Shown in pieces: positions 45,412-59,852 of a stretch of DNA of 64,000 bases (position 1 is the stretch's first letter; the number at the start of each line of letters is the position of its first letter). The DNA comes from Bacteroidaceae bacterium (lineage in GTDB: Bacteria; Bacteroidota; Bacteroidia; Bacteroidales; Bacteroidaceae). The notes beneath the pieces are model-generated. The model saw nothing but the letters and a program-made list of their open reading frames with translations. It did no database searches and was not told the origin of the DNA. The position numbers and the translations under genes were made by a program. The stretch lies in the NCBI GenBank assembly GCA_017557635.1, contig JAFYYH010000003.1, positions 59,327-123,326 on the forward strand, given 5' to 3'.

Positions 45412-45440
45412 TTTGTATAATTAGTTAATGTTGGTCAAAC

Positions 45441-45476
45441 AAAAAAGCCTCTCTCACATCTGTGAGAAAGGCTTTT
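45441..45476 (-). terminator. Attenuator (leader terminator) of the leu operon
   Basis: On the minus strand AAAAGCCT and TCTCACA pair with TGTGAGA and AGGCTTTT around a GA loop, giving a stem of about 17 bp, followed by a run of T. It lies between the leader peptide stop (45508) and leuA (45411), which is where a transcription attenuator belongs. Confidence 0.88.
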
Positions 45477-45507
45477 GCATTTATTCCTATTGTTTCAGAT
45501 ATATGCG

Positions 45508-45573
45508 TCAGGCTTCCTCACACCGGCAGTCCGGAATGATAATGGAAATAATAATGAAGCCCTGCAGTCGCAT
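45508..45573 (-). CDS. Isoleucine-rich leader peptide of the leu operon (21 aa)
   Basis: The frame starts at an ATG (complement of 45571-45573) and reads MRLQGFIIISIIIPDCRCEEA, then TGA; seven residues in the middle hold six Ile codons (ATT ATT ATT TCC ATT ATC ATT). An AGAAAGA stretch lies 4-5 nt upstream of the start. It sits between a Bacteroides promoter and a strong terminator hairpin. Ribosome stalling at the Ile codons when charged tRNA-Ile is scarce would favour readthrough into leuA. The Ile content fits the presence of a citramalate-type synthase in the operon. Confidence 0.8.
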   Translation of the reverse strand: MRLQGFIIISIIIPDCRCEEA

Positions 45574-45653: not shown

Positions 45654-45685
45654 TTTGTTTTTCATGATTACATTATATATCTTTG
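45654..45685 (+). promoter_or_regulatory. Promoter of the hipBA-peptidase-kinase-PqqD-ABC operon
   Basis: TTTG at 45654-45657, 20 bp, then TATCTTTG at 45678-45685 is a perfect Bacteroides promoter. It is divergent from and almost adjacent to the leu promoter. The leader to the hipB ATG is about 30 nt. Confidence 0.75.
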
Positions 45686-45722
45686 TAATTGATAATATTT
45701 GATTCTTTTACTAATAGATTAA

Positions 45723-46061
45723 ATGGATACAAATAATATATTATCACTTCTTGACGAATATGTTATGGAATCGGCCGATGATATAGCAATCAAAATGGCA
45801 CATGATTTCAGGAACAGAAGAATCGAGAAAAACCTGACCCGTGAACAAATTGCAGAGCAGGCACAGGTTGCCGTCAGCAACATAGTACGCTTTGAGCAGA
45901 AGGGTCTTATCTCATTAAAGAATCTGATAGCCATTGCAACGGTTTTGAATTACACATCTGAGATAAAGAGTATATTCCAAACCCCCAAATATGCAACCAT
46001 GGAAGAGTTGACACAGATACGTCGCAACACCGGCAAGAAGAAAGCCCATAAAATAGTATGA
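45723..46061 (+). CDS. hipB: HipB-like HTH antitoxin/regulator
   Basis: A 112-residue XRE-type helix-turn-helix protein (NRRIEKNLTREQIAEQAQVAVSNIVRFEQKG, about residues 27-57, split). It is followed after 4 bp by a HipA-like kinase, so it is the expected HipB antitoxin and autorepressor. The N-terminus (LLDEYVMESADDIAIKMAHDF) is a helical extension and the C-terminus is basic. As first gene it may regulate the whole downstream six-gene operon. Confidence 0.87.
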   Translation: MDTNNILSLLDEYVMESADDIAIKMAHDFRNRRIEKNLTREQIAEQAQVAVSNIVRFEQKGLISLKNLIAIATVLNYTSEIKSIFQTPKYATMEELTQIRRNTGKKKAHKIV

Positions 46062-46065
46062 CCGC

Positions 46066-47169
46066 ATGGACAGACTTACAGTGAAATACCACGACCGTAC
46101 AGTGGGAACGCTCTCACTTACCCCCGACAATAAGCTGTGCGCATTTGAATATGACAACAGCTGGTTGGCCGACGGATTCAGCATTTCACCTTTGGAATTG
46201 CCTTTGCGTCAAGGATTGTTTATTGCCAAACCGCAACCTTTTGGTGGTAATTTTGGCATTTTTGAGGATAGTCTGCCCGATGGTTACGGCCGGTACCTGC
46301 TTCATAAGGAGTTGATGCGCCAAGGCATCAATGACTCAAACCTTTCATCTATTGACCGCTTGAGTATGGTTGGAACTAACGGGATGGGCGCTTTGACCTA
46401 TCATCCACAGACAAATATCCATCTGGAAAACCAGAACCTTGATTTCGACCTGCTGCAAGCCAAGGCACTTGAAGTTCTCAAGGAGAAGCAGGACACTGAT
46501 GCAGGACTGCTTTTATACAACAGCGGCAACAGTGGCGGCGCTCGCCCCAAAGCAGTTTTCAGCGATGTACACGGTCATTGGCTTGTCAAGTTCCGTCACA
46601 CATATGACCCTCTTGACATGGGCCGTCAGGAATATCATTACAACGAGATAGCCCGCAAGTGCGGCATTCAGGTTCCTGATTTCAGGCTAATAAACGACAA
46701 GTATTTTGCTACGCGCCGTTTTGACATCGGACCGGATAACCAACGGATTCATACCGCCACTGCCGGCGGACTGTTGTGTGTGTCAATGTCAGCACCCGTA
46801 CTTGACTATAACAATCTACTTGCACTGACCGGATATCTGACCCAAAACCCGTATGATGTGGAACAGATGTTCAGGCGCATGGTATTCAACTATCTGACAC
46901 AAAACAAGGATGACCATAGCAAAAACTTCAGTTTCATCATTCAGTGCACAGACAATGGCCAATACCGCTGGCACCTTGCGCCCGCTTATGACCTGACTCT
47001 ATGTACCGAAGGATACAACGGAGAGCATGCCACCTCGGTGAACGGGACAGGACATCCTGCTCTTGATGATTTTGTAGCAGCAGGAACCAGAGTCAAGATA
47101 AAAAAACAACGTTGTCTGGAAATATACGATGAGATATACTCATCTTGCGGAGACATTCTATCCATATGA
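46066..47169 (+). CDS. hipA: HipA-like serine/threonine kinase toxin
   Basis: A 367-residue single-chain HipA. An N-terminal HipA_N-type domain (GTLSLTPDNKLCAFEYD ... GFSISPLELPLRQG ... FGIFEDSLPDGYGRYLL) leads to the kinase domain. The P-loop-like GNSGGARPKAVF is at about 153, the catalytic Asp region NKDDHSKNFSF at about 279, and the metal-binding APAYDLTL at about 306. E. coli HipA phosphorylates GltX and causes persistence; the target here is unknown. The stop codon overlaps the next start (ATGA), coupling the kinase to a peptidase-PqqD-exporter cassette, which is not usual for hipBA. Confidence 0.9.
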   Translation: MDRLTVKYHDRTVGTLSLTPDNKLCAFEYDNSWLADGFSISPLELPLRQGLFIAKPQPFGGNFGIFEDSLPDGYGRYLLHKELMRQGINDSNLSSIDRLSMVGTNGMGALTYHPQTNIHLENQNLDFDLLQAKALEVLKEKQDTDAGLLLYNSGNSGGARPKAVFSDVHGHWLVKFRHTYDPLDMGRQEYHYNEIARKCGIQVPDFRLINDKYFATRRFDIGPDNQRIHTATAGGLLCVSMSAPVLDYNNLLALTGYLTQNPYDVEQMFRRMVFNYLTQNKDDHSKNFSFIIQCTDNGQYRWHLAPAYDLTLCTEGYNGEHATSVNGTGHPALDDFVAAGTRVKIKKQRCLEIYDEIYSSCGDILSI

Positions 47170-47612
47170 CCGATGAGATTATCATAAAAGAGGCTGTCCG
47201 ATTGGTAGCAGACGGAGTAAGCGTAACCTTCCCGGTTAAGGGACGGAGCATGATTCCGTTTATAATAGGCGGGCGAGAAAGCGTAATCCTGCAGCAGCCC
47301 GCAAATCTCAAGGTCGGGCATGTGGTTCTTGCTCGGGTTGGCCCGGAGCGATACGTAGTTCACCGCATAATACGAATCAGTCCCGATGGACGAATTACCC
47401 TTATGGGAGATGGAAACATTCGCGGCACCGAAAACTGCAAAGAAAAGGATATCTTGGCCCGCGCCACCCATGTGGTTGATTCACAGGACAGGCGGCGTCC
47501 TTTGGATTCACGCGGACAACTGTTTAAAGCCAAGATATGGTTTTTTATCCGCCCTTTGCGCCGATATCTGCTTGCCGGTATGCGTTTACTCAAACCAAGT
47601 ATCTATAAATGA
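47166..47612 (+). CDS. S26-type (SipW/ER-like) signal peptidase-like protein
   Basis: A 148-residue protein from the ATG at 47166, chosen for its 4-bp overlap with hipA; an upstream ATG at 47145 is possible. Box B is VKGRSMIPFI with the catalytic Ser (about residue 28), box D is RYVVHRIIRI (about 62-71) with His in the place of the usual Lys, and box E is LMGDGNIRG. A Ser/His dyad is the mark of SipW/Sec11-type enzymes. There is no N-terminal membrane helix; the C-terminus is basic and partly hydrophobic (IRPLRRYLLAGMRLL). It could remove a leader peptide. It overlaps the kinase gene by 4 bp. Confidence 0.85.
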   Translation: MTDEIIIKEAVRLVADGVSVTFPVKGRSMIPFIIGGRESVILQQPANLKVGHVVLARVGPERYVVHRIIRISPDGRITLMGDGNIRGTENCKEKDILARATHVVDSQDRRRPLDSRGQLFKAKIWFFIRPLRRYLLAGMRLLKPSIYK

Positions 47613-48475
47613 AAGGAACCCAATATTACATAGTAGCTGAGCATACTTTCTGTGTTAAAGCGGCAGATAGCATTCTGGCGCTGATGCAGAACTATGAGCC
47701 TTTCAGAACTGCCCCGATTGAGGATCTCCTTTTTGGACTTACCGTGACCAACGGAAGTCCAGTTGACTACATCGAGGAGTGGCGGCAGGATGAGGAGGGA
47801 CAGGATACCATCTGCGGACATACGGAGCAGGGAGAACCTGTGTTTGAGTTCCGGTTTGGCGGCAAGACTGCGGGATGGCTGGTCTGCGTGCCGGGATATC
47901 GCAGTGCAACACTGCATTTGAGCGGATTCCAGACCAAGGCCGCACTTGACAACTCCCTGATGATACAGTTTGCAATGGCATCGGCCTGCTTGGAAACAGT
48001 ACTGTTCCATGCGGCTGTGGTGAGTCTGGATGGACGCGGATATATGTTCCTTGGCAAGAGCGGTACAGGCAAAAGTACACATGCAAGACTATGGCTGCAG
48101 AACATACACGGCACTGAACTGATGAATGATGACAACCCTGCCGTACGTATCAAGTCCGATGGCACCGCTGTGGTCTATGGCACTCCTTGGAGTGGCAAGA
48201 CCCCATGCTACCGCAACATATGCGCTCTGATAGGCGGAATTGTGCTGCTCAGTCAGGCACCTTACAATAAGATTGTACGACTGAACGGCATAGGTGCTTA
48301 CGCAGCAGTTGTACCCAGCATATCGGGTAAACGCTGGGATTCACGCATTGCCGACGGCCTGCATGAGACTGAAAACATGCTTGCCAGCAGCATACCGGTA
48401 TGGCATCTGGACTGCCTGCCCGATGCTAATGCCGCTCTGATTTGTAAAGAAACAGTAACACAAGATAGGAAATGA
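47609..48475 (+). CDS. HprK-like P-loop kinase of a peptide-modification cassette
   Basis: A 288-residue protein. The C-terminal half has FLGKSGTGKSTHARLW (about 147-162), the GxSGxGKS P-loop of HPr kinase, and MNDDNPAVRI (about 171-180), equivalent to the downstream Asp region. The N-terminal 130 residues are unrecognised. Homologous kinases in lasso-peptide clusters such as paeninodin phosphorylate the precursor peptide. No PTS system is near, so a role on HPr is unlikely. It has 4-bp overlaps with the genes on both sides. Confidence 0.8.
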   Translation: MKGTQYYIVAEHTFCVKAADSILALMQNYEPFRTAPIEDLLFGLTVTNGSPVDYIEEWRQDEEGQDTICGHTEQGEPVFEFRFGGKTAGWLVCVPGYRSATLHLSGFQTKAALDNSLMIQFAMASACLETVLFHAAVVSLDGRGYMFLGKSGTGKSTHARLWLQNIHGTELMNDDNPAVRIKSDGTAVVYGTPWSGKTPCYRNICALIGGIVLLSQAPYNKIVRLNGIGAYAAVVPSISGKRWDSRIADGLHETENMLASSIPVWHLDCLPDANAALICKETVTQDRK

Positions 48476-48741
48476 AGATAAAGAAAGGATTTGTGCTGCG
48501 CACCGTGTGCGGCGAGAACGTGATAGTGGGTGAAGGCCTTGATGCAATCAATTTTGGCCGCATGCTCTGCCTCAACGAAACTGCCGCTTTCCTCTGGAAA
48601 AAGGCAATGGAATACGGTGACTTTACGGCCGATGACCTGGCTGGCGCACTTTGTCAGGAGTATGACGTGGATCAGGCTCAAGCGCTTAATGACGTAAAGG
48701 AAACTCTGGACAACTGGACTAAACTGGGAGTAATGGAATGA
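48472..48741 (+). CDS. PqqD-like RiPP recognition element protein
   Basis: An 89-residue protein with the PqqD fold pattern: an N-terminal beta segment (KIKKGFVLRTVCGENVIVGEG), LNETAAFLWKKAME at about 34-47, then helices with FTADDLAGALCQEYDVD and a final LDNWTKLGVME. PqqD domains bind the leader peptide of ribosomally made, post-translationally modified peptides and present it to the modifying enzymes. It overlaps the kinase and exporter genes by 4 bp each. Confidence 0.87.
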   Translation: MKIKKGFVLRTVCGENVIVGEGLDAINFGRMLCLNETAAFLWKKAMEYGDFTADDLAGALCQEYDVDQAQALNDVKETLDNWTKLGVME

Positions 48742-50357
48742 AATATTCAAGCTGGATATGGCGTAACACACAAGGTATCCGCCTTAACACCGCGGTACGA
48801 ATTGTGACAGGCACAGCACAGGTTGCCATGGGTCTTCTCATGGTATGGCTGAGCCGCCGTTTCATAGACGAGACCATCCACACCGGATCTGCCCATGACG
48901 TAACAGTCATGATCATCTGGCTGGTGCTGACCGTAGTTGGCGGAGTGCTGCTGCGTCAGGTCTATTTCCTGCTCACCACCAAGGCAAGCATCCGCCAGAC
49001 CAACGCCATCCGTCTGCGCATGTTCAGCGGACTGTTCCGCCGCCAGCTTTACGACGAGAAAGAGATACACTCGGGTGACATAAGTTCCCGCCTTACCAAG
49101 GATATCGAGGTCGTGTCCGATACCACTACCGATACCCTGCCCCAGATGTGCATCACCTGCATCCAGCTGATAGGTGCATTCCTGCTGCTGCATTACTTTG
49201 ACCGCTGGCTTGCCTGGGCCCTGCTCATAATGACTCCGCTTGCCATAATAATGGCCAAGTTTATAGGCCGTAAACTGCGTCAGATGACGCTTGACATACG
49301 TCAGGACGAGAGCCGAATCCAGATGCAGGTTCAGGAGGGCATGGAGAACAACGCCGTACTGCGCGCCATGGGCAGCCAGGAGTGGATGACCGGCCGCCTG
49401 GACACCATGCAGCGGCAGCTCAAAGGCAACATAATGCGCCGCACCCGCTTTACCATAATGATACGCATCATCATGGGCTGCGCATTCGGCCTGGGTTACC
49501 TCACAGCCTTTATCTGGGGAGGACTCCAGTTACGCGCCGGAGCAATCACGTTCGGTGTCATGACCTCATTCCTGCAACTTGTAGGCCAAATCCAGCACCC
49601 CGTAATGCAACTGCTCAACCTTGTCCCGCAAGTGATACACTCCACCGCCAGCATAGACCGCCTCATAGAACTTGAAAGCCTTGAATCAGAGGCCGATGCA
49701 TCCACGCTGCACCCCACCCTGAGCGGCATCAGATTCAACAACGTAAGTTTCAAATACGCCGGCGGTGACCGTCAGATACTCTCAGACTTTACACATGATT
49801 TCCGTCCCGGCACCAAGACAGCCCTGATGGGTGAGACCGGCATAGGCAAGACCACACTGTTCCGCCTCATGTTAGGCTTCATCAGCCCCCAGAGCGGCAC
49901 CATAACGCTTTACGGAAATGACGGCATCACCATGCCCGCAGGCTCCACCACCCGCCCCGACTTTGTATTCGTACCCCAGGGCAACACCCTTATGAGCGGT
50001 ACCATCCGCTTCAACCTGCAGGTGGCCAATCCGGAGGCATCGGACCAGGAGCTTTTACAAGCGTTGCATACCGCCTGCGCAGACTTTGTACAGGAACTCC
50101 CCGACGGTTTAGATACAGTTCTTGGTGAGCGAGGCACCGGACTCAGTGAAGGCCAGGCCCAAAGAATAGCAATAGCCCGAGGCCTACTGCGCCCGGGCTC
50201 CATATTGCTTCTTGATGAGATAAGTTCATCACTCGATGCCCCCACCGAGGCCGAGCTCTACGCCCGCCTCTTCAAGGCCTATCCGCAAAAAACAATGATT
50301 TTCATCACCCACCGCGAGGCCGTCACCGCCCTTTGCGATGAAACTCTGACACTTTAA
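48738..50357 (+). CDS. ABC exporter with fused membrane and ATPase domains
   Basis: A 539-residue MsbA/LmrA-type half transporter. Six membrane helices lie in residues about 15-300. The nucleotide-binding domain at about 330-539 has Walker A GETGIGKTTLFRLM, signature GLSEGQAQRIAIARGL, Walker B ILLLDEISSSLD and H-loop ITHRE. There is no C39 peptidase domain, so leader cleavage would fall to the S26-type peptidase upstream. Last gene of the hipBA operon. An AT-rich higBA promoter follows at once. Confidence 0.9.
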   Translation: MKYSSWIWRNTQGIRLNTAVRIVTGTAQVAMGLLMVWLSRRFIDETIHTGSAHDVTVMIIWLVLTVVGGVLLRQVYFLLTTKASIRQTNAIRLRMFSGLFRRQLYDEKEIHSGDISSRLTKDIEVVSDTTTDTLPQMCITCIQLIGAFLLLHYFDRWLAWALLIMTPLAIIMAKFIGRKLRQMTLDIRQDESRIQMQVQEGMENNAVLRAMGSQEWMTGRLDTMQRQLKGNIMRRTRFTIMIRIIMGCAFGLGYLTAFIWGGLQLRAGAITFGVMTSFLQLVGQIQHPVMQLLNLVPQVIHSTASIDRLIELESLESEADASTLHPTLSGIRFNNVSFKYAGGDRQILSDFTHDFRPGTKTALMGETGIGKTTLFRLMLGFISPQSGTITLYGNDGITMPAGSTTRPDFVFVPQGNTLMSGTIRFNLQVANPEASDQELLQALHTACADFVQELPDGLDTVLGERGTGLSEGQAQRIAIARGLLRPGSILLLDEISSSLDAPTEAELYARLFKAYPQKTMIFITHREAVTALCDETLTL

Positions 50358-50423: not shown

Positions 50424-50735
50424 ATGGAGATCACATTCGAAAAAAGTTATCTGCGTGAGCTATTTTACGATGGCCAGACTAATGATAAACAACATTGGTA
50501 TCAGCCTCAAATTGTAAAGAAGTATATCCGGGTAATTAATATACTTGACTCAGTGGATAAACCTACAGATTTATTCAGATATAAATCTCTACATTATGAG
50601 AAATTGGTGGGTGACAAATCCGGATTAGAGTCAGTTCGAGTGAATGATCAGTATAGGATTGAATTTAAGACATCTTCAAAAGGAGAGATAACAATCTGTA
50701 GTATTACAGATTTGTCAAATCATTACAAGAAGTAA
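50424..50735 (+). CDS. higB: HigB-type mRNA interferase toxin
   Basis: A 103-residue RelE-superfamily toxin of the HigB (plasmid maintenance killer) branch: the central KSLHYEKLVGDKSGLESVRVNDQYRIEF and the C-terminal ICSITDLSNHYKK with the conserved His fit. The toxin-before-antitoxin order is typical of higBA. It has its own palindromic promoter. Confidence 0.88.
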   Translation: MEITFEKSYLRELFYDGQTNDKQHWYQPQIVKKYIRVINILDSVDKPTDLFRYKSLHYEKLVGDKSGLESVRVNDQYRIEFKTSSKGEITICSITDLSNHYKK

Positions 50736-50753: not shown

Positions 50754-51065
50754 ATGGGAAACTTAGGATATGGAGCATTCCCCACGCACCCTGGAGAGGT
50801 GCTCAAGGACGAGATTCTGGAGCGTGGCATCACCCAGCGACAGTTGGCTGACAGCATGGGACTAACCTATTCTGTAGTCAATGAGATCCTTAACGGACGC
50901 AGGCCACTGACTGCAAAAACAGCCCTTATGTTTGAGGCCGTTTTAGATGTGCCTGCAGACTCTCTAATGTATCTGCAGACCAAATACAACATGCAGACAG
51001 CAAGAAAAGACTCATCAGTATTAGATAGTCTTAAGAAACTGAGAAAAATTGCTGCCGTATTCTGA
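50754..51065 (+). CDS. higA: HigA-type HTH antitoxin
   Basis: A 103-residue XRE-family protein beginning with the HigA signature (AFPTHPGEVLKDEILERGITQRQLA split) and a helix-turn-helix at about 25-55 (QRQLADSMGLTYSVVNEILNG). It neutralises HigB and represses the promoter by the upstream palindrome. It starts 18 bp after higB. Confidence 0.92.
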   Translation: MGNLGYGAFPTHPGEVLKDEILERGITQRQLADSMGLTYSVVNEILNGRRPLTAKTALMFEAVLDVPADSLMYLQTKYNMQTARKDSSVLDSLKKLRKIAAVF

Positions 51066-51165: not shown

Positions 51166-51297
51166 TTAATTAAACAAATCATCATAATTCCATACGTCTT
51201 CAGAATCCCCACTACCAATAAGGATTCCCTTTGTCATTTCCAGGTTAATAACCTCCGTTACGGGCTTGCTGTATATCTTCTTTTCCATAGTCGTCAT
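51166..51297 (-). CDS. 43-residue peptide with YxKP motif, coupled to the adhesin
   Basis: The ATG (complement of 51295-51297) overlaps the adhesin stop as ATGA. An alternative start is 51288. It reads MTTMEKKIYSKPVTEVINLE, then MTKGILIGSGDSEDVWNYDD, then LFN. The first half (YSKPVTEV) resembles the start of many short Bacteroidota peptides of unknown function; the second half has a GSG turn and an acidic, aromatic tail. It has no signal or membrane segment. YxxP is also the leader motif read by recognition proteins in some lasso-peptide clusters, and a PqqD cassette lies 0.8-4 kb away, so a precursor role is possible but untested. Confidence 0.7.
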   Translation of the reverse strand: MTTMEKKIYSKPVTEVINLEMTKGILIGSGDSEDVWNYDDLFN

Positions 51298-54200
51298 TTC
51301 TTAATCATGATTGTTTTACCATTGTGTATATACAGTCCCGGAGCGATTGGCTCAGTCTCCAGCAGGCGACCGTTCATGTCATACCACGTATTAATATCCA
51401 TCTCACCTGTTACCGTATCAAGTGTTCCCACAGCAGTAACCGTTCCGCCGGCACTAACCAGCCTTACAGTTATGCGGCTGGGCACCTCTGTATCAGTGCC
51501 GATAGCACCAAGGGCCGATGCCCGCATCGGAGCCCGCTGTGCTCCGTTCTTATACGTCAGGTAACAGCGCATGGGCGGAACGCTTGCACCCTCCTTGGCA
51601 TGCACAAACTGTCCAGCCTCGACATCATGTCCGTCAACTGTCTTGCTCTTGGAAGCAAAACCGTAGATATGACCCGTCATAGGCTCCGTACCGTAAGTAA
51701 GGTTTGTATAGGTACCGGTAAACGTCCAGTCGCCACTGGTGGTAGCTAGTCCGCCCGATACGTCATAACCGGCCGTACCGTGGAACAGTACAGGTACGCT
51801 GCCTGAACCCTCCGGCAGGAACAGATAAGGTTTGTTGGCAACAGTAGCTGTAACCTCATTCATTGTAGCCACCCAACCGTCAACAGCGTCATAAGTCACA
51901 TCCACAAACTCATACACCTTACCGCCCTCAATTTTCGTCAAGGCAAACGGCAGGCAGATGGTCGATGCCTTGCCACCCGTGAACTCACGGCGGAAGGCTA
52001 CCTTGCCGCTCAGGTTGCTGGGCACCGTCTCCGACTCGCTCAGGATTGTGGCAGCCACAGCACCTTCAGGATATTTATTATTATTGATGTCACTTGTGCC
52101 TACACCCACGCTCGTGGCATTCGAAACACCACCTATAGTGCAGTTATAGTAGTAGTTGGTGTTGAGGGTGCCACCATTATTGGTGTCATTGCGGCCTGCT
52201 ATGGCCCCCTTGCTGCCGACATTTGGAATGGTGGCACCTATTGCAAGGCAGCTGCTGACAGAACCCCTATTTTGTCCTACGATGCCGCCGAAATGACTAC
52301 CGCTTACCCCATTGCCGACAATGATAGTAGCCGAACTGGTGCCGTTTGATACATTACCGTCATTTTGTCCTACGATGCCGCCGTAGTTGTCACATCCCGT
52401 CAGGTTATCAGCGACGGTGAGTACAGCCTGGCTAGTGCAGTTTATGACAGTGCCGGAGCATCCCACAATGCCACCGTGATCGTCGGCATCGCTGACCACC
52501 GTATGAATGGCAACGTTACCGTCTACGTGGCAGTTATTGACAGTGCCTATGAGTTGGTTGGTGTCAGTAAGATATCCCACGATGCCGCCAACATAATATT
52601 TACCTGTGATACGTGCATCGCTCAGGGTCACGTTCTTCACGGTGCCCCTTGCATAGCCGAATAGTCCCTGACTGTTATCGTTACCTTTATATATACGTAT
52701 GCCGCTGATGGTGTGTCCATCGCCATCAAAGGTGCCCCAGAACTCTTTACCAAATACGATGCCGATTGAGGTGTAGTTGTTTTCGGTGCTGGTGGCATCA
52801 TTCCAGTCAGTTGTGTGGGCATAGGTGATATCATTGCCCAGCTTGAAGAACTTGCCATCGAATTTATCGGCGGTGTAGCCGTCGATGCCGTTCACGTTCT
52901 TGGCGAGCAGGTCGAGGCCGGTGGTGCTGGTGATGATGTAAGGATGCTCCTCACTACCGTCGGCAGCAGGGTTGTTGGTAATGCCCCACACATCAGTAAT
53001 ACCACTGACGGAAGCATCGCAGGCAGGCATTTTGAAGGTGTAAGTGTCGTTGCTATAGGTGACAGCAATGTCGTTGTTGTTGGCATCCTTTACTTTAATG
53101 TCAAGGACATACCCCCGAGGAATGCTGCCGTTGTATGTAAAAGAGACATTGGTGTTGCTGGCGTAGTAGGTGTCAGAACCGATGGTGACGCTCTCTCCTG
53201 AGGCAGTAACGCCATCAGCGAGAGTGAGGCTATGGACGCTGCGGGCACCGTTGGGGTCGACACTGCCGTTACCCACATTGGTGGTGTTGCCACCCACGGT
53301 GCAGTTGAGATAATAGTTGGCGGTTAAAGTGCTGCCGGCATTCACGCCTACTATTGCGCCCCTACTTGATACAGCCGGAATGGTAACACCTACTGCAAGG
53401 CAGTTGCTGATTGTGCCACCTCTGGCATATCCCACAATACCGCCGACTTCTCTCCAGCCTGTCAGTCCGTTTGAATCCATGAAGGTGACCGAGCTGGTAC
53501 AGTTCGAGACGGAGCCTTTGCTTGCTCCCGCAATGCCGCCATGACTTTCGGCAGAGTTTACCACAGCTTGGATGGTGACGGTACCGTCAACGTGGCAATT
53601 ATTGATAGAACTAATTGGGCCGTTGTCGTAGTAGGTGAGAAAACCCACTATTCCGCCAACATCCTGTTTACCTATAATGTGGGCATCACTTAGGGTCACG
53701 TTCTTCACCTTGCCTCCAATCACATAGCCGAACAGTCCCTGGAAATTGCTTTCACCTTTGTAAATGCGTATGCCACTGATGGTATGGTCTTTGCCGTCAA
53801 AGGTGCCGCGGAAACAATAATTCTGTGAGGCACCGATGGCGGTGTAGTTGTCCTCCGTGTCAGCACCTTCTTCGTTGGCTTCTTTGTGGATATAGGTGAT
53901 GTCGGCACCCAGCTGGAAGAAAAAGCCATTTGGATGTTCGTTGTCAGCACCATATCCCATACCGCTGTTCACGCGGGTGGCCAGCAGGTCGAGATCTCTT
54001 GTGGTGGTGATATTGTAAGGATGCGCCTCGCTGCCGTCGGCACCGTCAGGGATGCCCCAAACATCAACAATGATAGAGGCCTCGCCGTTTCCATTCAGAT
54101 ACACACCACATTCGCTGCTGTTATCACAGGTGAAGTTCGCAACCGTTCCATTGCCGTTGAGACCGCTGGTAAACACACCGGTATTGTCCTGCATTCTTAC

Positions 54201-57200
54201 GCCGATGCAGGCCCCAGTTGTCAACGCGCCGGTGACGGTGATGACCTTGCCGCTTGTCAGGTATACATTGTTCGCCTTGCTGGCAGTACTATTCGTATTG
54301 CCGGTGATGACGGGGTTGCCGCTGATATTGAATGTGCCGTCATTATAAACACCACCACCATATTCTGCGTTGTTGCCGGTGATTGTGCCGCCGGACATAG
54401 TGAATGTGCCTGTGTGGTACACATATACGCCACCGCCAGGTTTGGTGGTGGTATTGCTGATAATATTTCCACCATTCATGATAAGCGCACCCCAAACATA
54501 CACACCGCCACAATTATTCTTGCTGTTGCCACCGGTAATTGAACCGGTATTGGAGTCGCTGCTATCGTTGATTGTCAGCGTGCCGTCTACCCTAATTACA
54601 TGACCATTGTTCGCAGCCGCAGTAAGATTGCGATTGATGGTATGGCCGTTAAGGTCCAGTGTGACAGTCTTGTCGTTGGGGACATACAGGTAGGTATCCG
54701 TCTCTGTAGCAGTGATGTCATACGGCAGGGTGAACGTACCGCCGTTTTGCATGGCGGCGTTGAGGCTTGCCCACGTCATGGCAAAGGTCGCGCTGACCAT
54801 AATGTTTGAAGCGGGCATGGTGAAGGAATAGACGCCCTCGGACGGGGTGATTTCATGATCGGTGCCGTCGTTGTAGTTTACCGTGTTGATGGCATAGCCC
54901 GCATTCGGGGTGACGGTGAGGGTGACGGTCTGGCCTGCAACAGCGTTCGCAAGGCTGGCGGTTACGGTGCCGTGCTCGATGCTCGGATCAATGGTCACGG
55001 TATATGCCGTGGCCAAAGCGGCTTCGCCGTTGTCCGCGACAATACCGTAGCCGATTCTGTCCGAGAAGAACACCGCCAGGACCGCCTCGTCGTCAGCAAA
55101 GGTGCCGCCGTAGGTGAAGGTGCCGGTGAGATCGTAGGATGCAACGCCCATGCGCGCCCCAGCCGTCAGCAGTCCGCCCACGGTGATAAGATTGCCCGTA
55201 TTCAGATATATGTTGTCGGCCAAATCGTCGTACACGTTGGTGTTGCCTGTCACGGCGGGCCCGCCGCTTATGGCGAAGACGCCGTCGTTTAAGAACACGC
55301 CGCCGCCCTTGCCGTTATTGCCAAGGTCCGCAGTGTTGCCCGTTATCGTGCCGTCTGTCAGGTTGAAACTACTGCCGCTGGAAGAGATATATACGCCACC
55401 GCCCTTTCGCGCCGCGTTGGTGGAGATGACGCCGCTCTCCTGGTTGAAGGTGCTGTTGCCGGACACATAAACGCCGCCGCCGTTGTTTGCGGTGTTGCCC
55501 GTTATTGTGCCGCCCGTCATGGTGAACGTGCCGCTGGCCGAAATGGTGCCGCTCAGATAAACGCCACCGCCGGAAATGGTCGCGGTGTTGTCCGTTATTG
55601 TGCCGTCCGCCATGGTGAGGATGCCGCTGCTTACATATATGCCGCCGCCGTTACGCGCATCGTTGTCCGCAATCTCACTGTCCGTCAGGGTGAAGGTGCT
55701 GCGATAAACGTACACACCACCGCCCTGAATTTTTGCGGTGTTGTCCGAAACTGTGCCGCCGGTCATGGTGAAGGTGCTGCCGGTATAGGCATATACGCCG
55801 CCGCCATCGGATTTTGCGACGTTGCCCGAGATCGTGCCGCCGGTCATGTCGAAGAAACTGTTGGTGTTCACGTAAACGCCGCCGCCATAAGTTCTTGCGA
55901 CGTTGCACGAGATCGTGCCGCCGGTCATGTAGAAGCGTCCGTTTTCCACGTAAACGCCGCCGCCATAGCCTGCGCCATTGCCTATGATGGTGCCGCCCTC
56001 CAGAGTGACGCTGGGGAATGCGTTGCTGCCGCCGTATATATACAAGCCGCCGCCTTTGTCGCTGCTATTGCCGCGGGTGATGATGCCGCCGGTGATGGCC
56101 GTGCCGCTGTGGACGGCGTTCGGGTCGCTGTCTCTCACGGTCAGATTGCCGATTGCCCTGATAACGTAGCCGTCCGTCTTCGCCTCCGTCAGATTGCGGT
56201 CGAGCGTAAAGCCGTTCAGGTCGAGGGTGACGTAACGGCCCGAGGGGATGGTCAGATAGCTGTCCGTTGCCTCGGCGGTGTAATCCTCGGTGAGGGTGAT
56301 GAGCGTCGGGAAATCCTCATCGGTGCTGGCAGCGGCGAACCGGCGATTGAGCCAATCCCATTTCGTTATCACTTCCGCGCTGACGGTGGCGTCGGCGGCG
56401 GACATGGTGAGCGTGGTGCCGCTGAGGGCTTGCGTGCCGACGCTGTAAACGACGATGTGGTTCGCGGGCACCGTGCCGGTGTAGCTGAGGGTGAAGGTGC
56501 TGCCGGCGGTGTAGTAGGTGGTGCCGCTGATGGTGACGCTCTCCACGGTGCCGGGGGTGGCGGTGATATCCGCGCCGAGGGTAAGGGCGTGGACGCTCTT
56601 GGCGCCATCGACGTCGTTGCTGAGGCCGGCGGTGCTGGTGCCGACGCCGATATTGGTGGTGGCACCGTTCACGCTGCAGGCGTGGTAGTAGTTGTTGCTG
56701 AGGGTGCCAGCAATGTTCTTTCCGACGATGGCTCCAGCATAACTATTGGCGTAGCTGTAGGAGAGGCCGGTGACGATGCAGTCGGAGAGGGTGCCGCCGG
56801 AGCTCTGGCCGGTGATGCCGCCCCTGTAACTTCCGCTCCCGTTCAGCACTGCGGCGCTGGTGCAGCCGGTGATGGTGCCGGTGTAGTTGTTGCCCGCAAT
56901 GCCGCCGTGGTAATTGCCGTTGCCAAGGATGTTGACGTTGGCGGTCACGTGGCAGTTCGCGATGGTTCCATGGCTATCGCCAGCTATACCGCCGACGCCC
57001 GTCTTGTTGCTGAAGATGCGGGCGTTGCTGAGGGTGAGGTCCTTCACGGTGCCGCCGGTGCCGATGTAGCCGAAGAGGCCCTGGCTGTCTTTGTTCTTCT
57101 GCGTGATGCGGATGCCGCTGATGGTGTTGCCGCCGCCGTCGAAGGTGCCTTTGAAATAATAGTTAGTATTGCCAGAGACTCCGCCGATGCCGGCGAAGTT

Positions 57201-59852
57201 GTTCTCCGTATTGCTGTCATCGGTGTTGTCCCAGTCGGTGCCGGAACTGTACTCGATGTTGCCGCCGAGGAGGAAGAACTTGCCGCTGAAGTCGTTGGCC
57301 GGGTAGCCGCTGACGGTGCCGTTGACGAGCGTGGCGAGCAGGTTGAGTCCGGTGGTGGTGCTGATGATGTAGGCGCGCTGTGCGGTGGTGCCGTCGTGGT
57401 CGGCGTCGGCGTGCCAGTGGGTGGCGTAGTCGGGGGCGGTGGCGGCGCTGACCTCGACGTCGGTGGCGGACATGGTGAGAGTGGTGCCGCTGAGGGTGCC
57501 GGCAGTGGCGCTGTAGTTGACCATGAAGCCGTCGGGCACGGTGGCGGTGTAGGCGAGGCCGACGGTCTGGCCCTCGCCGCTGTAGATGGTGGTGGCGGTG
57601 CCGTCGTTGTGGCTGAGGGCGGTGGTGCCGACGGCGGTGAGGCCGCTGACGTCGTAGACGGTCTGGGTGCCGCTGAGGGCGACGCCGGTGCCGAGGCTGA
57701 CGGTGCGGGCGCGGCGGGCGCCGTCGCGGTCGCTGCTGCTGCCATCTGCACCGACGCCGCCGAGGCTGATGGCGGTGTAGTAGTTGTTGGAGAAGACGCC
57801 GTAGTTGTATTCATCGTAGCCGATGATGGCGCCTTTCTTGTTGGCAGCGGTGACGGTGGTGCCGGCGTAGAGGCAGTCCTTGACGGTGCCGTGGTAGTTG
57901 TAACCCACGATGCCGCCGTAGTACTGGCAGTTGATCTTGCCATTCTTGCTGATGGTGGCGGCGCTGTAGCAGCCGATGACCTTAGCAGCATAATTTACGT
58001 TGTAACCCACGATGCCGCCGTGGTTGTGGGCATAGTTATTTCCGGCGTTGATGGTGACGGTGCTCTCAACGCGGCAGTTCTCCACGGTGCCGCCCCTGTT
58101 GTAACCCACGATGCCGCCGACTCTGCTACCGCCGGTGAAGATGCTGCTGGCGAGGACGACGTTCTTCACGGTGCCGTAGTCAGTAGAGTTTACATAATCT
58201 AGTCTGCAGAAGACGCCTATGTAGCCGTCGGCTTCGCGGCTGACGGTGATGCCGCTGATGGTGTAGCCCTGTCCGTCGTAAGTGCCGAGGAATTCGGCCT
58301 CGTCGCTGCCGCTGACGTAGTAGCCGATGGGCGTGTAGGTGCTGTCGCATGTGATGTCCTGCGTCTGCTGGAAGGTGAGGCCGCTGCAGGGGTTCTTGGC
58401 CGCGTTGACCAGGAGGGCGAGGTGGCGCAGGTCGGTCTTGGTGGCTATCTCGTAGGTGTTGGTGCCGAGGCTGTTGAAGTCGGCGGCGGTCCAGGCGTAG
58501 TCGTCGTCGAGGGCGGTGGCGAAGGCGTGGCTGACGGTGCCGCTGAGGGCGTTGCCGGCCAGGTCGGTGATGGTGCCGCTGTGGGCGGTGACGCTGAGGG
58601 TGCCGGTGGCGTCGCTGCCGATGGTGCCGCTGAAGGTGAGGACGTTGGTGCCGCTGCCGGCGCAGTAGCTGAGGGTGCCCCACGAGGTGGCGAGGGTGGG
58701 CGTGCCGCTGACGGTGACAATCTCGCTGAACGCCACGCTGACGTAGATGACGTTGCCCTTCTGGTGGCGCCCGCCGCTGACCTTGTAATTGCTGAGTACG
58801 GTGGGGGCGGTGGCGTCCACGGCCTGAATGTGGGCTTTGACGTTTTTGGCATACCATTCATCGTTGTCGGTGCCGCCGCCGCTGGCATTAAAGCGGACTA
58901 CGAGTGTGTTGAAGTCCAAAGGGAGGATGAGCCTGCCGTCGGTAGCGCGGCAGCTGGTGTTGAACTTTTGTGTGTAAAGCTTGTTGTCAACGCCATTGCT
59001 CCAGGCATTGGTCACCGTAGAGCAGTTGTTGCCCGCAGAAAGGACGGGGAAAGTGTATGCGGCGTAAGTGGTATTCTTGCCACCGGGGTCGTGGTCGAAG
59101 CCCGCCATGTAGCGTGAGAGGTTGATATTGCCAGGGTCACCGTTGCTGCAGTCTGAGCGGTCGTCGCATGTGCTGGTGTTATTGATGAGTACCTGTACGT
59201 ACTGGTAGCCGTTGTTCTTCTCCTTTGCGTCGAAACTCAGCGTTGAGCGCAACTGTGCACCGATGAGGGTGTAGTAGGCCACAGGAGCGATGCCGCTAAG
59301 ATTGTAGTAGCTTGAGCTGTTTATGTAATGAGGATTGTTGCCTTTGTTGTAGCCGGCATCGGAGTACTGAACCTCATCGGTGTAGATGGTGATGTCCTTC
59401 TCGGCAAACGCGCCGCTGCTGGGCACGCTGGTGCCATAGCTCCGGCTGCGGTCGCAGGATGCCAGGATGTCTCCGTTGCGATCCAGCACCTCGAAGCGGT
59501 AGCTGCGGGTGGTGCCGTTCTGATACTTGTAGGCATTGTCGCCGGGGTTGCTCTCGCTGATTGTGACGTCCTTGTAGGTGTCGTTGACATTGAAGGTCAC
59601 AGTGCCGGAGTAATTGCCGTTATAACCGGTGAAGTGAACGCCCGCAATGGCGGAGAGGCTTACTACGCGCCAGTCGATGGTCTCGCTGACGGCGGTGTTG
59701 CCCGTACGGGTGATGCGGAACGTGTTGTTGTTCTGTGGGCTCGACACCGTGAACGTGCTGGCTGCCCATACACTCTGCCCCGCCAAGAGCGCTGCTATCG
59801 TCAGCACCAGCGCGAGGACCCTATCAAACTTCTTGATACTTTTTAATTCCAT
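51294..59852 (-). CDS. Giant repeat adhesin with GLUG and polymorphic-membrane-protein repeats (2852 aa)
   Basis: Signal peptide at about 1-30, then a beta-sandwich region (31-345), an Ig-like/SwmB-type domain (about 350-445) and GLUG repeat blocks at about 460-700 and 810-1110 (GGIVGYN...GTVENC type). A beta-helix block of GGGVY repeats follows at about 1160-1590 (MTGGTISCN, VYVNTNS and similar). Next come an InlB-like module (about 1617-1680, IEHGTVTASLANAVAGQTVTL), a second GGGVY block (1694-1925), and two more GLUG blocks (1930-2600). The C-terminus (YDMNGRLLE...PGLYIHNGKTIMIKK) looks like a sorting domain of the type 9 secretion class. Base composition changes sharply along the gene. A surface adhesin is inferred; the ligand is unknown. 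Confidence 0.88.
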   Translation of the reverse strand: MELKSIKKFDRVLALVLTIAALLAGQSVWAASTFTVSSPQNNNTFRITRTGNTAVSETIDWRVVSLSAIAGVHFTGYNGNYSGTVTFNVNDTYKDVTISESNPGDNAYKYQNGTTRSYRFEVLDRNGDILASCDRSRSYGTSVPSSGAFAEKDITIYTDEVQYSDAGYNKGNNPHYINSSSYYNLSGIAPVAYYTLIGAQLRSTLSFDAKEKNNGYQYVQVLINNTSTCDDRSDCSNGDPGNINLSRYMAGFDHDPGGKNTTYAAYTFPVLSAGNNCSTVTNAWSNGVDNKLYTQKFNTSCRATDGRLILPLDFNTLVVRFNASGGGTDNDEWYAKNVKAHIQAVDATAPTVLSNYKVSGGRHQKGNVIYVSVAFSEIVTVSGTPTLATSWGTLSYCAGSGTNVLTFSGTIGSDATGTLSVTAHSGTITDLAGNALSGTVSHAFATALDDDYAWTAADFNSLGTNTYEIATKTDLRHLALLVNAAKNPCSGLTFQQTQDITCDSTYTPIGYYVSGSDEAEFLGTYDGQGYTISGITVSREADGYIGVFCRLDYVNSTDYGTVKNVVLASSIFTGGSRVGGIVGYNRGGTVENCRVESTVTINAGNNYAHNHGGIVGYNVNYAAKVIGCYSAATISKNGKINCQYYGGIVGYNYHGTVKDCLYAGTTVTAANKKGAIIGYDEYNYGVFSNNYYTAISLGGVGADGSSSDRDGARRARTVSLGTGVALSGTQTVYDVSGLTAVGTTALSHNDGTATTIYSGEGQTVGLAYTATVPDGFMVNYSATAGTLSGTTLTMSATDVEVSAATAPDYATHWHADADHDGTTAQRAYIISTTTGLNLLATLVNGTVSGYPANDFSGKFFLLGGNIEYSSGTDWDNTDDSNTENNFAGIGGVSGNTNYYFKGTFDGGGNTISGIRITQKNKDSQGLFGYIGTGGTVKDLTLSNARIFSNKTGVGGIAGDSHGTIANCHVTANVNILGNGNYHGGIAGNNYTGTITGCTSAAVLNGSGSYRGGITGQSSGGTLSDCIVTGLSYSYANSYAGAIVGKNIAGTLSNNYYHACSVNGATTNIGVGTSTAGLSNDVDGAKSVHALTLGADITATPGTVESVTISGTTYYTAGSTFTLSYTGTVPANHIVVYSVGTQALSGTTLTMSAADATVSAEVITKWDWLNRRFAAASTDEDFPTLITLTEDYTAEATDSYLTIPSGRYVTLDLNGFTLDRNLTEAKTDGYVIRAIGNLTVRDSDPNAVHSGTAITGGIITRGNSSDKGGGLYIYGGSNAFPSVTLEGGTIIGNGAGYGGGVYVENGRFYMTGGTISCNVARTYGGGVYVNTNSFFDMTGGTISGNVAKSDGGGVYAYTGSTFTMTGGTVSDNTAKIQGGGVYVYRSTFTLTDSEIADNDARNGGGIYVSSGILTMADGTITDNTATISGGGVYLSGTISASGTFTMTGGTITGNTANNGGGVYVSGNSTFNQESGVISTNAARKGGGVYISSSGSSFNLTDGTITGNTADLGNNGKGGGVFLNDGVFAISGGPAVTGNTNVYDDLADNIYLNTGNLITVGGLLTAGARMGVASYDLTGTFTYGGTFADDEAVLAVFFSDRIGYGIVADNGEAALATAYTVTIDPSIEHGTVTASLANAVAGQTVTLTVTPNAGYAINTVNYNDGTDHEITPSEGVYSFTMPASNIMVSATFAMTWASLNAAMQNGGTFTLPYDITATETDTYLYVPNDKTVTLDLNGHTINRNLTAAANNGHVIRVDGTLTINDSSDSNTGSITGGNSKNNCGGVYVWGALIMNGGNIISNTTTKPGGGVYVYHTGTFTMSGGTITGNNAEYGGGVYNDGTFNISGNPVITGNTNSTASKANNVYLTSGKVITVTGALTTGACIGVRMQDNTGVFTSGLNGNGTVANFTCDNSSECGVYLNGNGEASIIVDVWGIPDGADGSEAHPYNITTTRDLDLLATRVNSGMGYGADNEHPNGFFFQLGADITYIHKEANEEGADTEDNYTAIGASQNYCFRGTFDGKDHTISGIRIYKGESNFQGLFGYVIGGKVKNVTLSDAHIIGKQDVGGIVGFLTYYDNGPISSINNCHVDGTVTIQAVVNSAESHGGIAGASKGSVSNCTSSVTFMDSNGLTGWREVGGIVGYARGGTISNCLAVGVTIPAVSSRGAIVGVNAGSTLTANYYLNCTVGGNTTNVGNGSVDPNGARSVHSLTLADGVTASGESVTIGSDTYYASNTNVSFTYNGSIPRGYVLDIKVKDANNNDIAVTYSNDTYTFKMPACDASVSGITDVWGITNNPAADGSEEHPYIITSTTGLDLLAKNVNGIDGYTADKFDGKFFKLGNDITYAHTTDWNDATSTENNYTSIGIVFGKEFWGTFDGDGHTISGIRIYKGNDNSQGLFGYARGTVKNVTLSDARITGKYYVGGIVGYLTDTNQLIGTVNNCHVDGNVAIHTVVSDADDHGGIVGCSGTVINCTSQAVLTVADNLTGCDNYGGIVGQNDGNVSNGTSSATIIVGNGVSGSHFGGIVGQNRGSVSSCLAIGATIPNVGSKGAIAGRNDTNNGGTLNTNYYYNCTIGGVSNATSVGVGTSDINNNKYPEGAVAATILSESETVPSNLSGKVAFRREFTGGKASTICLPFALTKIEGGKVYEFVDVTYDAVDGWVATMNEVTATVANKPYLFLPEGSGSVPVLFHGTAGYDVSGGLATTSGDWTFTGTYTNLTYGTEPMTGHIYGFASKSKTVDGHDVEAGQFVHAKEGASVPPMRCYLTYKNGAQRAPMRASALGAIGTDTEVPSRITVRLVSAGGTVTAVGTLDTVTGEMDINTWYDMNGRLLETEPIAPGLYIHNGKTIMIKK

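Follow-up and report, generated by a model that had tools for sequence, protein, structure and literature searches.

We analysed a 64,000-nucleotide stretch of DNA (hereafter, the window) from a Bacteroidaceae bacterium (GenBank assembly GCA_017557635.1, contig JAFYYH010000003.1, positions 59,327 to 123,326), focusing on plus-strand genes at 45654–50357 that a first-pass annotation had described as a hipBA module joined to a peptide-maturation and export cassette. The window lies on contig C15 of its own draft genome, G000. A Bacteroidetes-type promoter match (TTTG-N20-TAnnTTTG; 45654–45685, plus strand) stands ahead of a hipB-like antitoxin gene (45723–46061) and of hipA, which encodes a HipA-family kinase toxin (46066–47169); below we argue that these two plus-strand genes are an insertion outside the cassette proper. 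The cassette itself, also on the plus strand, consists of genes for a candidate leader peptidase of the S26 or signal peptidase I (SpI) type (47166–47612), a candidate HprK-like peptide serine kinase (47609–48475), a PqqD-type recognition element (48472–48741) for ribosomally synthesized and post-translationally modified peptides (RiPPs), and an MsbA-like ATP-binding cassette (ABC) exporter (48738–50357). Four ATGA overlaps join hipA to the S26 gene, S26 to HprK, HprK to PqqD and PqqD to the exporter, and 4 bp separate hipB from hipA. The gene order, overlaps, 4-bp gap and promoter given in the first-pass annotation were thus all seen in the window.

The PqqD-type protein (89 aa) matched PF05402 (E = 3e-14), and the exporter carried ABC_membrane and ABC_tran domains, with no peptidase domain among its Pfam matches; its match to TIGR02203 (1.8e-69) fell below that model’s cut-off. 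The two candidate enzymes likewise matched below curated cut-offs: the S26 product to Peptidase_S24 (7e-4) and an archaeal signal peptidase model (2.5e-5), and the kinase to Hpr_kinase_C (7e-4) and HprK-related models. Alignments bore out the Ser/His dyad previously noted in the peptidase, Ser28 and His66 being invariant in 27 aligned sequences (84 relatives collected). The kinase motifs GxSGTGKST and NDDNP were invariant in 17 aligned sequences (106 collected). With PADLOC models, the ABC protein had no matches beyond generic ATPase ones, and those of hipB and hipA were weak.

A short gene on the minus strand, overlooked in the earlier work on the plus-strand cassette, encodes the candidate substrate. 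It follows a gene for a 2852-aa, probably secreted protein with Glug and InlB-type repeats (51294–59852, minus strand), which ends in a conserved C-terminal domain of ~63 aa (WYDMNGR...GLYIHNGK; 51300–51488, minus strand), hereafter the tail, that is common to the surface proteins preceding such peptides. The predicted precursor (51166–51297, minus strand) reads MEKKIYSKPVTEVINLEMTKGILIGSGDSEDVWNYDDLFN from an inner ATG at 51288; a first ATG at 51297, which overlaps the stop codon of the 2852-aa gene by ATGA (4 bp), adds MTT, giving a length of 40–43 aa.

A comparison of small open reading frames (ORFs) around cassettes yielded one large cluster of 25 ORFs in 24 loci, and the eight shown were of the same type. 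A profile built from 14 motif-matching ORFs found the window precursor (E = 1.5e-6), which was the sole match at E 1e-3 across the whole draft genome. The family came to 94 distinct peptides, all with K..[Y/F]xxP (91 Tyr, 3 Phe). Their leaders follow the pattern K..YxxP...V, with [L/I][L/C] before the core in most peptides. A serine lay 18–20 residues after the Tyr/Phe in 87 of the 94, compared with 4–24 peptides at slid positions, a count that is partly circular because the leader model used for collection covers the Ser position. NCBIfam and Pfam gave no above-cut-off match for the precursors and tails tested, and the peptide strings were not found in the papers searched.

The two ends of the precursor appear to evolve differently. 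We compared the window gene with those of three congeners whose peptides differ from it (two of the three share one sequence). Over the first 23 codons there were 3–4 synonymous and 0–1 non-synonymous changes; after codon 23 the protein differed and no synonymous change was counted, although the 12 non-synonymous core changes are inflated by a length difference of one residue. A fourth congener had the identical peptide with three synonymous leader changes. The pattern suggests a conserved leader and a variable core.

We collected wide regions around the kinase gene in a 37-genome genus, which includes the window’s own genome, and 80 loci from named genome records. After repeats (L031–L036) were dropped, 107 non-redundant stretches remained, all chosen for holding the kinase; counts among them rest on crude gene calls, and many stretches are cut. 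Most of the genomes are drafts or metagenome-assembled genomes, and related genomes are not independent, so the p-values below ignore kinship. The kinase gene was present in 31 of the 37 genomes of the genus, and the 107 stretches included S26 in 85, PqqD in 90, the ABC gene in 79 and all four genes in 65. A search of a plasmid collection for the cassette gave just three records with matches, at 29–42% identity, and we rejected a plasmid-borne cassette.

Across 251 genomes of the family, 199 carried the kinase and 94 a precursor. Precursors occurred in 92 of the 199 kinase-positive genomes and in 2 of the 52 kinase-negative ones (p = 6e-10, kinship uncorrected). Within the genus the corresponding values were 27 of 31 and 1 of 6 (p = 0.0016). 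One genome assembled as a single contig (G255) was matched once by the kinase and eight times by the precursor model, at sites scattered along the chromosome, an arrangement that fits action in trans.

A studied counterpart of the four-gene block exists in the lpp cluster of Paenibacillus alginolyticus, whose product is a linear polyphosphorylated peptide (LPP). According to its description (PMC13381572; Nat Commun, May 2026), the cluster encodes an SpI-like peptidase, a discrete RiPP recognition element (RRE), an HprK-like kinase, a nucleoside triphosphate (NTP) transferase and an MsbA-like transporter, without a cyclase, and its precursor motif is YxxPxVLxHQxIxFETxxS. The kinase LppK phosphorylates Ser3, and the peptidase LppS, an archaeal-type SpI/SipW-like enzyme with catalytic Ser, His and Asp, acts with the RRE to remove the leader (PMC13381572). 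The window cassette is like LPP in its discrete RRE, its HprK-like kinase, its MsbA-like exporter and its candidate SpI-like peptidase; in its short precursors with a YxxP leader, a conserved Ser near the predicted cleavage site and a variable C-terminal part; and in having no macrolactam cyclase, with no PF00733 match on the window’s contig. Two relatives (L051, L059) have leaders of the form YEKPxMxVxxLQHQxxLLxxS, and an NTP transferase gene, which LPP also has, lies beside the kinase in some Prevotella and Fibrobacter relatives.

Because most of the LPP features examined were found, though the window lacks an NTP transferase, we classed the block as LPP-like. With a probability of roughly 0.85, in our estimate, the S26-HprK-PqqD-ABC block represents the LPP pathway in a Bacteroidota form. 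By analogy, the PqqD protein would bind the KxYxxP leader of the short precursor, the HprK-like kinase would phosphorylate the conserved Ser close to where the variable core begins, the SpI-like peptidase would cleave the leader a few residues upstream of this Ser, and the ABC exporter would send the linear phosphopeptide out, the products corresponding to LppB, LppK, LppS and LppD, respectively. The single precursor found in G000 (51166–51297, minus strand) is the candidate substrate. The first-pass annotation had proposed a RiPP-type unit, probably acting by phosphorylation and cleavage without a cyclase, and both the precursor family and the LPP counterpart (PMC13381572) support that proposal. 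Its statement that no system of such composition had been described does not hold for the four-gene block, which is matched by LPP in the same source.

A number of observations weigh against this assignment. The window lacks the NTP transferase that belongs to the LPP core set (tblastn with two PF14907 relatives, window only). In other cassette stretches, 26 neighbour genes (~370 aa) formed one cluster, and all three scanned were PF14907 nucleotidyltransferases. No residue of the S26 protein could be assigned as the counterpart of the catalytic Asp in LppS, and the Ser lies mostly 19–20 residues from the Tyr here, compared with 18 in LppA (PMC13381572). Among NCBIfam models, a lasso chaperone model fitted the PqqD protein best, below its cut-off. 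Precursor ORFs were called in only 32 of the 107 cassette stretches, and there was no precursor hit, at the threshold used, in 107 of the 199 kinase-positive genomes of the family and in 4 of the 31 in the genus. Finally, 37 of the 82 precursor hits in the genus had no tail hit directly upstream. For the kinase-positive genomes without precursors, the model may miss divergent precursors, or the kinase may serve other substrates.

Another related system is that of the phosphorylated lasso peptides, paeninodin and Bsf. According to PMC5067487 and PMC10368454, these share with the window cassette a kinase, a discrete RRE, an ABC exporter and [Y/W]xxP leaders, and BsfA is phosphorylated at Ser3. 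Unlike them, the window cassette has no macrolactam cyclase, and an S26 peptidase takes the place of the transglutaminase-like B2 peptidase; no B2 peptidase was recognised in the window cassette, PF13471 not having been searched genome-wide. The window product could still be a lasso peptide if the cyclase were encoded elsewhere, its precursor (...MTK-GILIGSGD) then being read with T(−2), G1 and D8. The model of the paeninodin family gave that precursor a weak match (E = 0.083, under the cut-off), and the YxxPxL leader motif is also that of lasso precursors, as given in PMC10368454. Yet G1...D8 is not kept across the wider precursor family, PF00733 matches G000 only once, in a 594-aa frame of contig C13 (the window being on C15), and 8 of the 27 genomes of the genus with both kinase and precursor, some of them incomplete, had no PF00733 match at E 1e-5 (G001, G009, G013, G017, G019, G021, G022 and G023). 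On this distribution of PF00733 we rejected a lasso peptide with a cyclase acting in trans, and we consider the lasso reading as a whole very improbable.

The LPP-like assignment in Bacteroidota would extend the known range of such pathways. LPP and the paeninodins are called restricted to Bacillota, and the role of LPP is unknown according to its authors (PMC13381572); no word beginning with ‘bacteroid’ occurs in the main text of that paper. In our search of the open-access literature, no paper described LPP from Bacteroidota or Fibrobacterota (subscription papers and bioRxiv were mostly outside the search). Surveys of rumen and Bacteroidales RiPPs (PMC7533575, PMC10352776, PMC13289728) held nothing resembling the present arrangement in the portions available, and two RRE papers (PMC7470986, PMC12710340) made no mention of the features sought. 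What differs from LPP is that the present system occurs in Bacteroidota and Fibrobacterota and that many of its precursors are dispersed, behind genes for surface proteins. What appears to be new, then, is an LPP-like system in these two phyla with dispersed precursors, many of them behind surface-protein genes with a common C-terminal domain. The genes, the precursor family, its conserved leader and variable core, the co-occurrence with the kinase and the bicistrons are all as read from sequence. Naming the system together with its precursors and surface-protein ties makes its role testable.

Many precursors lie directly behind genes of large proteins that share the ~63-residue C-terminal domain, and this surface-protein link is a genomic fact. 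Tails of at least 60 bits were found in 27 of the 107 cassette stretches, and 26 of these 27 also had a precursor ORF; six stretches had a precursor without such a tail. In the 37 genomes of the genus, 45 of the 82 precursor hits had a tail hit immediately upstream, on the same strand and no more than 200 bp away; tails and precursors this close together occurred in no other arrangement. The fraction of tails followed by a precursor depended on tail score: 27 of 33 at 80 bits or more, 7 of 8 at 60–80, 6 of 16 at 45–60 and 5 of 35 below 45. Because most seeds of the precursor and tail models came from loci next to the cassette, the models favour scores there, and counts away from it are fairer; strong tails away from the cassette had a precursor behind them in 15 of 20 cases. 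In a hand-picked tail set that included other genera, a precursor followed 29 of the 40 strong tails and 7 of the 20 weak ones. These tails were drawn from longer lists, and about half of the strong ones came from the genus and recur in the 37-genome count; in this set one strong tail (L215) lies ~14 kb from its cassette and one weak tail (L259) at a cassette locus. The same pairing was seen in Fibrobacter loci L069, L072, L074, L076, L077 and L085.

We fetched 20 of the 37 tail-less precursor sites, of which 18 were readable (L276 and L278 were left out). Their precursors stood behind related but different tails, behind other genes, or free-standing.

Could these small ORFs instead be cotranslated accessory peptides, helping the surface proteins to fold or be secreted, with the cassette acting on something else? 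That idea fits the 45 of 82 precursor hits that come immediately after a gene with the tail domain, among them the hits behind 15 of the 20 strong tails remote from the cassette, and it fits the 107 of 199 kinase-positive genomes without a precursor hit. The idea does not sit well with a conserved leader joined to a variable core, with a YxxP motif of the lasso/LPP type, with the near absence of precursors from kinase-less genomes, or with the precursors that are free-standing or behind other genes. In addition, two cassettes (L086, L105) combine radical SAM genes with Cys-rich cores on a like leader. We therefore judge accessory peptides very unlikely.

The tail may itself be a signal for the type IX secretion system (T9SS), because the T9SS marker SprA was found in 37 of 37 genomes of the genus, the window’s own included. 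Like the C-terminal domains of T9SS cargo (TIGR04183), it is a short C-terminal domain on large proteins; unlike such cargo, the 2852-aa protein had no TIGR04183 match. We rejected the tail as TIGR04183, the six matches in G000 at E 1 or better including none on this protein.

Given that the precursor gene is coupled behind the gene of a giant surface protein, the peptide and the protein are probably made together, and they may act together outside the cell. A further step, which we offer tentatively, as possible rather than probable, is that gut and rumen Bacteroidota and Fibrobacterota have a phosphopeptide system of one cassette and many substrates, in which each precursor would be dedicated to the surface protein preceding it and the exported phosphopeptide would be joined to, or recognised by, that protein’s C-terminal domain. 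If so, the RiPP would belong to the cell surface, as one of its components or as a modification of it, instead of being a free antibiotic or signal.

The first-pass annotation had further proposed that hipBA has a function in the peptide pathway, either because HipA modifies the peptide or because HipBA controls or protects the producer. The module itself resembles an ordinary HipBA toxin-antitoxin system, with HipA_C (3e-42) and Couple_hipA domains and a helix-turn-helix protein encoded upstream. Among the 107 kinase-bearing stretches, hipA occurred in two only: the window and that of G024, the genome with the closest kinase found (92% identity to the window kinase). Both genomes have the ATGA overlap between hipA and S26, both have the promoter pattern ahead of hipB, where it is the sole upstream match, and in exactly these two S26 precedes HprK; HprK comes first in 81 other stretches, and in two the genes are on opposite strands. 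Such features would suit a functional part for hipBA, but the adjacency is not conserved. Seventeen relatives of HipA at other places (51–82% identity; several of their stretches stop at contig ends) adjoin none of S26, HprK, PqqD or ABC, and 13 of the 17 have a hipB-like gene in front.

Coupling by ATGA is also common in cassettes that lack hipBA, where these four letters close the upstream gene at 63 of 87 HprK-S26, 50 of 77 S26-PqqD and 33 of 72 PqqD-ABC junctions (six repeated stretches included; only the end of the upstream gene was scored). The cassette also adjoins leuA without hipBA in 11 congener stretches (L112–L116, L118–L123), some with an extra gene or ORF between. The annotation had allowed that the link would be accidental should the block prove common without hipBA and the adjacency be private to this strain; the block was indeed common (the kinase being in 31 of 37 genomes of the genus), and the adjacency was nearly private, occurring in two genomes. 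A conserved functional role for hipBA is largely refuted, and we hold its participation in the pathway highly improbable. Because the cassette is common without it and hipA stands beside the kinase in only two genomes, hipBA is, on comparative evidence, incidental: an ordinary toxin-antitoxin module that entered ahead of the cassette in the lineage shared by the window and G024. The S26/HprK order found only in these two genomes suggests that a local rearrangement accompanied the insertion. ATGA coupling to hipA is no evidence of shared function, and a toxin-antitoxin module can sit seamlessly inside a foreign operon.

The promoter pattern matched twice in the window, compared with 0.31 matches expected, and at least two matches occurred in 4 of 100 shuffles. 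In 18 congener stretches, the 600 bp upstream of the kinase held no match to it. Because it precedes hipB in both hipBA-bearing genomes and was not seen ahead of the kinase in those 18 stretches, the cassette may now be transcribed from the hipBA promoter. A second toxin-antitoxin module, higB (50424–50735) and higA (50754–51065), lies on the plus strand between the ABC and precursor genes. It is absent at the same place in G024 (L111), where the ends of the ABC and precursor genes meet instead, and so looks like a second insertion, present in the window only.

Variants of the cassette were also seen. In L086 and L105 a radical SAM gene (1002–2339 and 1554–2906, respectively) lies close to the kinase with a PqqD gene between (a second PqqD gene in L086), and the precursors have Cys-rich cores on a like KxFxxP leader, which suggests that the leader may serve more than one chemistry. 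Locus L079 has a similar Cys-rich precursor and, on the other strand, a 445-aa ORF that does not cluster with the radical SAM genes.

Some minor arrangements of precursors and tails were noted. In Fibrobacter loci L077, L076 and L085, a single tail protein is followed by a tandem series of two or three different precursors. Precursors of the form KKKEYAxPTTDVVEL... are near-identical in three congeners (L274, L275, L285), with no tail-domain gene ahead. An M6-type metallopeptidase gene with a like C-terminal domain precedes the kinase in L113 (5822–7507) and L116 (5399–7066), the Pfam match being for L113.

Lastly, the region 45438–45573 of the window (minus strand) is a probable attenuator of a leuA-type operon, as judged by eye. 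It encodes a leader peptide, MRLQGFIIISIIIPDCRCEEA, at 45508–45573 (minus strand), followed by a hairpin and a T run ahead of leuA. Very similar peptides were found in 13 congener stretches.

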